From contig NZ_CDGG01000001.1 in NCBI RefSeq assembly GCF_000821065.1, positions 1,302,001 to 1,366,000 of the forward strand: a stretch of DNA of 64,000 nucleotides. The letters are read 5' to 3'. Positions within the stretch are counted from its first letter, which is position 1. Every line of letters starts with the position of its first letter. Origin of the DNA: Oceanobacillus oncorhynchi. Its GTDB lineage: Bacteria; Bacillota; Bacilli; Bacillales; Amphibacillaceae. The translations under genes and the position numbers were made by a program. Positions 33,018-35,481 of this stretch are shown here, one piece after another. Below the pieces are notes generated by a model. That model was not told the DNA's origin and searched no databases. It was given only the letters and a program-made list of their open reading frames with translations.

Positions 33018-33072
33018 AAAAATATGCCGTTTTACTTGGGATTTTTAGGTCAGGTAAACGGCATATTTTTAA
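33018..33072. terminator. second terminator after the P-type ATPase
   Basis: AAAAATATGCCGTTTTAC and GTAAACGGCATATTTTT pair almost perfectly (one bulge); T-run on the right, A-run on the left, so it could work in both directions. Confidence 0.8.
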
Positions 33073-33168
33073 CAAATGTAAAGATTTTGTTAAGTTTTGC
33101 TTGCATCATTATTGTGTACGGAACATCGTGGTATACTTAATTACTTAACAAAAAAATGAGGACGGAAC

Positions 33169-35481
33169 ATGCAGATGGACAAAGATTATTTTCAGACAAA
33201 GCAGGAGCAGGCAAAGGCATATTTTCAAACGCTGCAGGCTCAAATACAAGAAGAGAATTTTGCGTCAGCCTTGATAGAGACGCTTCATCAATATCAACAA
33301 GATAAAAAGAAAACATGGGTAAATATAGATCATTGGAAGCAGCAGCCAAGCAAATTATTTATTTCTTATTTAGCGAAATCAGGCCAGCTTGATGCTTATT
33401 TGCATCGAAGTATTTCGTACATTTATTTCCGTGACCTGGGAAGGGATATTACCTCTGAAGCAATGCAGAGCAGAATAACTGCTGTCACAGAAGGTGTCAA
33501 AAATTACTTGAATCAGAAGGAGCAGCGAGTGCCGTTTCATCTGACAGAGCTTTACCAAATGGCACAAAAAGAATCGCTGGAAGAAGTATTCTTCTGGGTA
33601 TCGGATAAACTTAAACGTGTCTCCGCGATACTTCCGGATGGTTTGGATAAAAACGAAGCGAAACGAAAAATAATGAAGATTATTGCTGGTGTCGTTATGC
33701 ATGAATTGGAAGAATTGGATGGAGAACTGTCCGAAAATCGGAGGAGGCAGCTGTTAGATCAGGCTGTTCGTACAGGATATTATTATGGGTTGACCTATCC
33801 GTTGATTGATGATGTGCTGGATGCGGACGTGTTAACATTATCAGAGAAGAAGACTTTCGCTTATTTTATCCGGCAGACGTTATTCACAGGGGAGGTGCTT
33901 CCAGTAAAAGCTGACGATTGGCAGGAGAATCATTGGGAATTCATTTCTGCTGTGCATCAGGAGCTGTCGGAAGCATTTCATTATTTAAAATCCTGCCAGC
34001 CGGAGGAGAATAGACAGCTTTTTCTGGAAAATGCGTATTTATTTTTCGAAGCACAGGAACTGGACAGGCAAAAGCATTTGGATAATGGCAGGTATACCAA
34101 TGAAGAACTGTATACATCTGTTATTTTAAAATCGGCTTCCTCCAGACTGATTATCCGTTCGTTTAAGCCTTTTTCAGAGGTCGAGAACATCGAAGCAAAT
34201 ATGTTTCATTACGGGATGTATAACCAGCTTGCGGATGATTTAACAGATTTAGATGAAGACCTGGCGAATAGGAATGTCACGCCGTATACGTATTTTGTGA
34301 CGTATCGTGAACAGAATTCTAATTTAATCAATCCCTTTGCCATGTATTGGTCTGTTATTTATTATTTTATTCATAAGCTCTATCCGGGAAAGCCGGAGAT
34401 AAGAGATGTTATTTTGGACAGGGCAATAAACGGTTTAAAACGGCTAAAGGCAAGATTGGGAAAAGAACGCTATCAGAAATTGATGCAGCAGTTTTCCTTT
34501 GATCCGAATTTTGACAAAGCTTTAGAGAAAACAGTACATCGTACGCACAACGTAGCATTCTTTGATAAATGGATCCGTGATCAATTTTTAGATACATTAA
34601 AACAAAATCAGCAATTAAAGAAACAGTTTGTATCGAAAATGAAAGAAATCAAAGAACAAGTAGAAGAACAGCTTCCCTTTGAGTCAGCGAAAAATTCGTT
34701 AGAAGAAGCGGCAAACGACAGCTTGTCAGGCAATGCGAAGCGTTTACGACCAATGATGACATGGGTGCTGGCAAAAGAAGGGCTTCATCTTCCAGACCAT
34801 TTGGTCCTGCCCTTAGTAAAATCAATAGAATATATGCATACCGCCTCGCTTATTTTTGATGATTTGCCGTCACAGGATAATGCACCCGAAAGAAGAGGCA
34901 AGCAGACGCTGCATGAGAAATATAATCATGCGACGGCGGAACTGACTGGACTTTGGTTAACACAGCGCGCTGTAGAAGAGCAGGCTGTAATCAAGCATCA
35001 AGAACCTGGCAGGCTGCTAGAGCTTATTGCTTATTCCACCTGGACCACCCAAAATATGTGTCAGGGACAATTTTTGGATTTGCAGGCAAAAGGAAAGCAA
35101 TTAACGCTGGATGAGCTGAGAGAATTATCGGTTTATAAGACCTCCTTTGGTTTTGAAGCGGCCCTGATGATGCCGATGATTATGGCTGGAGAATCGGACG
35201 AGCGGAAGCAGGCAGTCCAGCGTTTCGCGTACCACGCAGGCATTGCCTTTCAAATCAAGGACGATTTATTAGATATAACGGGGGATGCGAATCTGTTGGG
35301 CAAACAGCCGGGAAGAGACGAGCGGAATAACAGCTCGACGTTTGTGTCCATCCTTGGCAAGGAAGAAGCACAGAAGGAAATGTGGCGTCACTACATGGCA
35401 GCAAGAAAAGAATTCACGTTGCTGCCGGATATCCCTTTCTTTTATCAGCTGTTAGATTATTTAATTTTGCGTGATCATTGA
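33169..35481 (+). CDS. tandem class I isoprenoid-synthase-fold protein with C-terminal polyprenyl synthetase domain
   Basis: A 770-residue protein. The C-terminal 290 residues are a polyprenyl diphosphate synthase: first Asp-rich motif FDDLPSQD (D564, D565, D570), then RRGKQTLHEKYNHATAELTG, and second motif FQIKDDLLDITGD (Q695, D698, D699). The N-terminal 480 residues are not annotated by simple similarity, but carry LIDDVLDAD (D214, D215, D218) and NQLADDLTDLDED (Q353, D356, D357, D360). The two motifs lie 142 residues apart in the N half and 134 in the C half, so the N half looks like a second, diverged class I domain. The likely role is making a prenyl diphosphate and then using it in the same chain; product unknown. 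Good GAGGACGG ribosome site; monocistronic. Confidence 0.85.
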   Translation: MQMDKDYFQTKQEQAKAYFQTLQAQIQEENFASALIETLHQYQQDKKKTWVNIDHWKQQPSKLFISYLAKSGQLDAYLHRSISYIYFRDLGRDITSEAMQSRITAVTEGVKNYLNQKEQRVPFHLTELYQMAQKESLEEVFFWVSDKLKRVSAILPDGLDKNEAKRKIMKIIAGVVMHELEELDGELSENRRRQLLDQAVRTGYYYGLTYPLIDDVLDADVLTLSEKKTFAYFIRQTLFTGEVLPVKADDWQENHWEFISAVHQELSEAFHYLKSCQPEENRQLFLENAYLFFEAQELDRQKHLDNGRYTNEELYTSVILKSASSRLIIRSFKPFSEVENIEANMFHYGMYNQLADDLTDLDEDLANRNVTPYTYFVTYREQNSNLINPFAMYWSVIYYFIHKLYPGKPEIRDVILDRAINGLKRLKARLGKERYQKLMQQFSFDPNFDKALEKTVHRTHNVAFFDKWIRDQFLDTLKQNQQLKKQFVSKMKEIKEQVEEQLPFESAKNSLEEAANDSLSGNAKRLRPMMTWVLAKEGLHLPDHLVLPLVKSIEYMHTASLIFDDLPSQDNAPERRGKQTLHEKYNHATAELTGLWLTQRAVEEQAVIKHQEPGRLLELIAYSTWTTQNMCQGQFLDLQAKGKQLTLDELRELSVYKTSFGFEAALMMPMIMAGESDERKQAVQRFAYHAGIAFQIKDDLLDITGDANLLGKQPGRDERNNSSTFVSILGKEEAQKEMWRHYMAARKEFTLLPDIPFFYQLLDYLILRDH

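Follow-up and report, generated by a model that had tools for sequence, protein, structure and literature searches.

A candidate chimeric class I terpenoid synthase in Oceanobacillus oncorhynchi and other Bacillota

We analyzed a 64,000-nucleotide stretch of the Oceanobacillus oncorhynchi genome (GCF_000821065.1, contig NZ_CDGG01000001.1, positions 1,302,001 to 1,366,000 of the forward strand; hereafter the window), a genome of 4.6 Mb in one contig, and in it a gene whose single open reading frame (ORF; 33169-35481 of the window, forward strand, ATG at 33169, stop codon at 35479-35481) encodes a protein of 770 residues. We favor, with moderate confidence, the reading that this protein is a bacterial chimeric class I terpenoid synthase, in which the C-terminal half (C half) would make a prenyl diphosphate of 20 carbons (C20) or longer and the N-terminal half (N half) would turn it into a terpene. 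An earlier note on this DNA had described a 770-residue frame with a pair of Asp-rich motifs in each half, and translation bears this out, with all four motifs at the residues given there, with motif spacings of 142 residues in the N half (214 to 356) and 134 in the C half (564 to 698), and with second motifs of the form Q-x-x-D-D. Of its larger claim, that both halves are class I enzymes, the part concerning the C half as a prenyl diphosphate synthase is supported, and the part concerning the N half as a second class I enzyme is moderately supported.

Layout, distribution and the C-terminal half

Conservation was assessed in 60 aligned full-length rows from 59 genomes, one of which (G104) is present twice (L025, L039). 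Two homologues are excluded from this count, L031, whose frame is interrupted between the two halves, and L024, which has an in-frame stop close to its start; the aligned rows also leave out 20/51 matches among relatives and 9/43 matches among genomes of the class. A further alignment (A1) holds 24 of the 30 fetched loci and omits, besides L031 and L024, the near copies of the window L009, L011, L012, and L013. The Asp and Gln residues of the motifs are more than a chance pattern, each being identical in 60/60 full-length rows. The features of the protein are listed below by window position.

33169-35481, forward strand: two-domain protein of 770 aa, single ORF with stop
33169-33555, forward strand: N-terminal region, residues 1-129, predicted helical and less conserved in the alignment; ratio of nonsynonymous to synonymous substitution rates (dN/dS) 0.075-0.113 over residues 1-130
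33556-34602, forward strand: N half core, residues 130-478, putative class I terpenoid synthase (alignment, remote homology, models)
33808-33822, forward strand: N-half motif 1, D214-D215-V-L-D218 (DDxxD); D214, D215, D218 in 60/60 rows
34129-34158, forward strand: basic patch K321 to R330, upstream of motif 2; K321, R326, R330 in 60/60
34225-34260, forward strand: N-half motif 2, Q353-LA-D356-D357-LT-D360-xxx-D364; Q353, D356, D357, D360, D364 in 60/60
34603-35478, forward strand: C half, residues 479-770, prenyl diphosphate synthase, IspA/CrtE-like (PF00348 at residues 510-743)
34729-34752, forward strand: GNAKRLRP; K524, R527, P528 in 60/60, R525 in 59/60
34843-34845, forward strand: A559, fifth residue ahead of the first C-half Asp motif; Ala in 60/60
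34858-34878, forward strand: first C-half Asp-rich motif DDLPSQD (D564-D565-x-x-x-x-D570), from translation and the 60-row alignment
34891-34899, forward strand: RRG following the first C-half motif; R575, R576, G577 in 60/60
35137-35142, forward strand: C-half KT motif; K657, T658 in 60/60
35251-35274, forward strand: second C-half Asp-rich motif QIKDDLLD (Q695-x-x-D698-D699-x-x-D702), from translation and the 60-row alignment

Sequence comparison supports the C half as a prenyl diphosphate synthase with intact catalytic motifs. The whole protein matches PF00348 of Pfam at 1.1e-48 (166.1 bits against a cut-off of 27), with the best stretch at residues 510-743, and the closest solved sequences to the C half are geranyltranstransferase (1rtr, 2.9e-38) and geranylgeranyl diphosphate (GGPP) synthase (7mxz, 5.2e-35). 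In NCBIfam it scores highest against FPPsyn (185 bits) and GGPPSynCrtE (136 bits), in each case short of the curated cut-off (275 and 460, respectively). The motifs KR.RP, DDxxxxD, RRG, KT, and QIKDDLLD are complete in 60/60 rows, R525 and I696 each varying once, and GNAKRLRP is presumably the isopentenyl diphosphate (IPP) site found in prenyl synthases. Chains longer than C15 can form when the fifth place before the first Asp motif holds a small residue; residue 559 is Ala in 60/60 rows, where the aligned residue is Tyr in 1rtr and Met in 7mxz. Because A559 is small, this chain-length rule suggests that the C half would make a diphosphate of GGPP length (C20) or longer.

To describe the spread of the architecture, we counted N-half homologues, which occur in 51/147 relatives (the window's own genome included) and in 43/398 genomes drawn from the class. 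At 49/51 and 43/43 of these places one unbroken frame of 771-859 aa gives enough length for a C half, the C half itself having been observed in the fetched homologues that were aligned; in Oceanobacillus jeddahense (L005) the N half is 90% identical to that of the window protein. Two places depart from this: in G047 the frame breaks between the halves, and G016 has a single in-frame stop. At the G047 locus (L031) the halves occupy two overlapping frames, and the break falls close to an A run in the interdomain stretch, which may reflect a sequencing slip, a real split, or slippage. Bacterial examples had been thought rare in the earlier note, a view that does not hold for this architecture, which is common among the relatives sampled. 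Elsewhere, a weak PF00348 match (G193:C1:1653840-1654469, 3.7e-20) lies inside a 626-aa open frame that is perhaps another fusion architecture.

The N-terminal half

The N half carries its own pattern of conservation, with D214, D215, D218, R300, K321, R326, R330, Q353, D356, D357, D360, and D364 invariant in 60/60 rows, and with an invariant R166-K167-x-x-K170 about 45 residues ahead of motif 1. K321 appears to sit about where prenyl synthases carry the lysine of KT. Over the 60 rows, mean pairwise identity is 59% for the whole N half and 64% for the C half; the N core and the C half are equally conserved (0.632 versus 0.636), and the pairwise identities of the whole N half and the C half correlate at 0.95. 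Across all 18 region-by-pair values from four genomes (six pairs) dN/dS is 0.057-0.113, figures that are rough, with 13/18 dS values above 1, and constraint is similar in the N core (0.057-0.088) and the C half (0.066-0.084). Given this conservation, the dN/dS values, and the correlated identities, the N half is a working part of the protein, and the C half seems to have travelled with it.

Relatives of the N half also occur without a C half. A search of the phylum with the N-half profile found a separate protein in G864 at 2.4e-7, the other eight matching genomes of 398 carrying fused forms. Neither this protein, which is truncated by the contig edge, nor its relatives L155 (419 aa) and L159 (a 418-aa frame) are fused. 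The N-half profile left the genomes of L155 and L159 unreported. In the other direction, a profile built from two stand-alone rows recovers the N halves of five fused proteins, the window's included (6.3e-9 to 3.0e-4), but not those of three further fusion carriers in that sample, and hhalign of the stand-alone family against the N halves gives 95.8% versus at most 10.0% for reversed decoys. Equivalents of D214, D218, K321, Q353, D356, D357, D360, and D364 are retained in the stand-alone proteins displayed, the second Asp of motif 1 being Asn; in alignment A6 the motif-2 residues Q353, D356, D357, D360, and D364 are present in all 10 rows, including two stand-alone relatives, both of which also have K321. 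L152 has no Pfam match, and L155 and L152 have no NCBIfam match; we consider these proteins a candidate unnamed class I family.

The stand-alone relatives of about 420 aa (L155 at 1495-2754, L152, and L159) come from distant genomes of the same phylum. Among ten checked neighbors of two of them nothing terpenoid was seen, the genes present including IS21- and IS110-type transposition genes and a BlaR1 gene, and L155 had no match among plasmids.

The N half might instead serve, fused to an active C half, as a subunit that regulates it or sets its chain length without catalysis, on the pattern of the small subunits found in heterodimeric prenyl synthases. Bacillus has such subunit pairs (HepS/HepT) and the C half has a complete site of its own, as such a subunit would allow; the invariance of the N-half Asp clusters, K321, R326, and R330 in 60/60 rows, however, is unexpected for a dead subunit, and stand-alone relatives such as L155 retain most of the motif residues with no fused partner. 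We regard this explanation as improbable.

The class I nature of the N half is argued by two further lines of evidence: weak matches to PF00348 and structure searches returning mostly isoprenoid synthases. PF00348 is matched weakly by 11/24 N-half members (E-values up to 10, best 3.2e-4), compared with at most 3/24 members for each other family among the 25/31 families listed; since the single E-values are near chance, it is the recurrence among members that carries this link. The NCBIfam prenyl synthase NF040936 is matched by 1/24 N halves at 0.047. When ten members were searched singly, four matched PF00348 (best 19.6 bits against the cut-off of 27), and in two of these the alignment is collinear and pairs motif 2 with the profile's second Asp motif (L020 282-381 on profile 93-197; L034 283-380 on 93-195). 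In hhalign against prenyl synthases, a joint profile combining N halves with stand-alone relatives reached 78.8% over 64 columns (2.0% with the profile reversed), and 2.4% against the C halves alone. On these grounds the profile link to prenyl synthases is suggestive and no more.

Structural models of the N half, built from four closely related sequences, are all-helical for both residues 1-478 (mean predicted local distance difference test score, pLDDT, 50.9) and residues 126-478 (pLDDT 52.9), and in both, motif 1 ends one long helix and motif 2 lies inside a later helix; the DDxxD falls at the end of predicted helix 189-217 in the first model and 64-93 in the core model, both of low confidence. 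In Foldseek searches, 49 of the best 50 matches of the 1-478 model (of 349, E-values up to 10) are isoprenoid enzymes, mainly terpene cyclases, the sole other row being an aminopeptidase, and 37 of the best 50 of the 126-478 model (of 522, E-values up to 10) are isoprenoid enzymes, with GGPP synthase ranking first; 9x0f, 7e4n, 8f8f, 6tbd, 6thu, and 9jr6 are among those which, partly by name, we take to be isoprenoid enzymes. Realignment with VIA-align, which is a second look at the same Foldseek matches and not an independent search, gives the 1-478 model a best Z of 12.3 (187 residues, 3.5 Å, model residues 135-350) with 50 of the best 50 being terpenoid or prenyl synthases, and the 126-478 model a Z of 8.8 (249 residues, 6.1 Å) over model residues 8-305, that is 133-430 of the protein, covering both motifs, with 46 of the best 50 being such synthases; some of these rows are assumed by name to belong there. 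Collectively, the fold searches are support, not proof, for a class I fold of the N half.

Several observations weigh against the N half as a terpenoid synthase. The window protein's own N half matches no isoprenoid model of Pfam or NCBIfam, no N-half match passes any curated cut-off in this protein or the members examined, and no Pfam terpene synthase model was matched, either among the 25/31 families listed for 24 members or by ten members singly. The unrelated family DUF445 reaches 9.2e-4 with 3/24 members, which places the best PF00348 E-value little above chance. The other two of the four single PF00348 matches pair motif 1 with the profile's second motif, which breaks collinearity, and the hhalign alignment of the joint profile does the same, its score falling to 21.9% once C halves join the prenyl-synthase profile. 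Solved structures searched by sequence with N-half queries returned chance-level rows only, among them the heptaprenyl synthase 9kp1 (E-values 2.3 and 0.15), and the comparison of N and C profiles gave no signal. Motif 2 lacks the NSE/DTE form of canonical terpene cyclases, (N/D)Dxx(S/T)xxxE, being DDxxDxxxD in 60/60 rows with Asp in place of Ser/Thr and Glu, and no terpene pathway genes were found among the neighbors. The structure prediction proposed in the earlier note did not reveal an unrelated fold, though the models are poor (pLDDT 51 and 53 when rounded). Their Foldseek E-values are never below 0.046, with root mean square deviations of 12-25 Å; 13 of the best 50 Foldseek matches of the 126-478 model are unrelated (twelve 14-3-3 chains and one receptor), as are 4 of its best 50 in VIA-align, all designed proteins. 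The top VIA-align alignments of the 1-478 model stop at residue 350, short of motif 2, and the VIA-align Z values are within the range flagged as possible for unrelated helical bundles.

An unrelated helical domain with coincidental Asp motifs would account for the lack of a curated family, the weakness of every homology test to known enzymes, and the low-confidence models. Set against this are the invariance of the motifs and a spacing like that of the C half, the isoprenoid synthases that repeatedly top the structure searches, and PF00348 in 11/24 members, and we judge such a coincidence very improbable. Overall, the N half as a second, catalytic-looking class I isoprenoid synthase is moderately supported, by its motifs, the weak PF00348 matches, the low-confidence models, and the stand-alone relatives.

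Two origins of the N half were considered and rejected. A tandem duplication would make the two halves homologous, and hhalign between N and C profiles gives 0.3% and 0.7%, so no recent duplication is seen. An origin from DUF2600/YtpB (PF10776), prompted by the style of the motifs, gave 0.2-0.3% in hhalign, and this family is not among the families listed. Viral contigs held no relatives of the N half, and in a plasmid search with the whole protein the best 20 of 376 records match residues 465-770 only.

Which class I reaction the N half would perform is a separate question. It may transfer or condense, fed by the C half, through further elongation, head-to-head joining, or prenylation of another acceptor, which may be a small molecule or, as with ComQ, a peptide. 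Both N-half motifs are of the DDxxD type, with Q ahead of the second as in prenyl synthases and no NSE, and the isoprenoid families matched by N halves are prenyl synthases. In addition, motif 1 resembles the second motif of 9kp1 in the match at 0.15, and R166-K167-x-x-K170 may lie roughly where prenyl synthases hold IPP. Yet no RRG follows motif 1, which makes ordinary chain elongation less likely; the fold searches rank mainly cyclases, though GGPP synthase comes first for the 126-478 model, and no direct neighbor recurs that might encode an acceptor (among ORFs of at least 70 aa; a short peptide gene would escape). We think transfer or condensation unlikely but, because the second motif is of the DDxxD type, a contender to be kept in view.

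Under the chimeric terpenoid synthase that we favor, the C half would join IPP to an allylic diphosphate, giving an all-trans prenyl diphosphate of C20 or longer. The N half would bind this diphosphate via magnesium at its two Asp clusters, with K321, R326, and R330 nearby, and would ionize it, the cation being quenched to a terpene, most simply a diterpene. With both halves fused, one gene would turn IPP and dimethylallyl diphosphate (DMAPP) into a terpene without partner genes.

Genomic setting and upstream region

Among the direct neighbors of the fusion gene at 19 loci beyond the close group, no gene cluster occurs more than once (ORFs of at least 70 aa, picked mechanically), and neighboring genes were rejected as a functional clue. 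In the close group itself, 5/5 loci have a calcium-ATPase-like gene as their first or second gene upstream. In stretches of about 20 kb, one unidentified cluster is present in 10/24 loci and one with a SelO member in 6/24, their positions shifting. Ten neighbors were checked (SelO, 2-hydroxyacid dehydrogenase, GNAT, AbrB, radical SAM, BacA, FMN reductase, TauE, APH, and EutH); BacA, which acts on an isoprenoid diphosphate, was met once. In L070 a GNAT gene starts directly at the end of the fusion gene, and for this reason the latter is not everywhere a one-gene transcript.

The isolation of the gene from other terpenoid genes, noted earlier, holds for the window: three more PF00348 genes, one SQS_PSY gene, and a squalene-hopene cyclase over its cut-off lie elsewhere in the genome, no further terpenoid families having been searched. 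PF10776 (YtpB) is absent from the source genome and present in 121/144 relatives. The close form of the fusion, with an N half at least 79% identical, occurs in seven genomes (G000, which is the source genome itself, G002, G008, G009, G015, G019, and G025), none of which has PF10776. Because other fusion carriers retain PF10776, the fusion is not simply a replacement for YtpB.

Upstream of the fusion ORF, the following elements and inverted repeats were observed.

33158-33165, forward strand: ribosome-site-like GAGGACGG, ahead of the fusion ORF
33129-33137, forward strand: possible extended -10 promoter element TGGTATACT, with TGnTATACTTAATTACTTA aligned in 7/7 close-group upstream regions
33085-33095 and 33143-33153: perfect 11-nt inverted repeat TTTTGTTAAGT / ACTTAACAAAA, 47 nt apart, flanking the possible promoter
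33020-33068: perfect 13-nt inverted repeat AAATATGCCGTTT / AAACGGCATATTT, in the interval separating the calcium ATPase gene from the fusion gene

A consensus scan did not call the possible -10 element. The 10-nt core of the 11-nt repeat occurs at such spacing once in the window and in 0/100 shuffles, and only GTTAA and ACTTA of it are kept in all seven aligned upstream regions; it is possibly an operator. The 13-nt repeat, which that consensus scan did not list either, is perhaps a terminator stem.

Relation to known systems

Chimeric terpene synthases of fungi (PTTS; for example the fusicoccadiene synthase PaFS) carry a cyclase domain first and a prenyl diphosphate synthase second in one chain. 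The protein described here resembles them in having a prenyl synthase as its C half and a putative class I domain, putatively a cyclase, as its N half. Unlike them, it is bacterial, its C half is nearest to the FPPsyn and CrtE models, its N half is undetected by Pfam terpene synthase models, and its second N-half motif is of the DDxxD type rather than NSE; PaFS was not among the best 60 of 169 sequence matches. The C half shares its motifs with bacterial farnesyl diphosphate and GGPP synthases (IspA, CrtE; PF00348) and differs from them in scoring below the FPPsyn and GGPPSynCrtE cut-offs and in being fused behind another domain. The class IB large terpene synthases (YtpB/tetraprenyl-beta-curcumene synthase, PF10776, DUF2600) are class I enzymes of the Bacillus group, and one likeness to them was seen, the C25/C30/C35-prene synthase 5yo8 at rank 20 (Z 7.3) in VIA-align of the 126-478 model, in contrast with the profile comparison and the missing PF10776 described above. 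Canonical bacterial cyclases (epi-isozizaene, linalool/nerolidol, and kaurene synthases) are among the best fold matches of the N half and share a DDxxD motif 1, but no significant sequence match to solved chains was found and motif 2 is DDxxDxxxD, not NSE.

With a C half closest to IspA/CrtE-type models and an N half outside the listed terpene-cyclase families, the protein probably stems from a separate fusion event within Bacillota. The class I chimera as such is already known; what sets this protein apart is the bacterial fusion together with an unlisted N-half family. In the portions of the open-licence literature covered, no bacterial chimera of this kind was found, papers under other licences and preprints being outside that scope, and PTTS are described, in an excerpt of one paper, as a family "occurring only in fungi" (PMC8307374; PNAS 2021).

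Taken as a whole, the data prompt a broader proposal, which we put forward tentatively and see as almost evenly balanced: that Bacillota hold widespread self-sufficient chimeras, fused independently of those of fungi, whose N half would be an unlisted class I cyclase family that also occurs stand-alone, and whose product would be a terpene so far overlooked in common bacteria. If true, a bacterial counterpart would show that this fusion arose more than once and would add a class I family missed by the profiles of Pfam and NCBIfam, and the protein would offer a way from one gene to a terpene, readily tested in E. coli.

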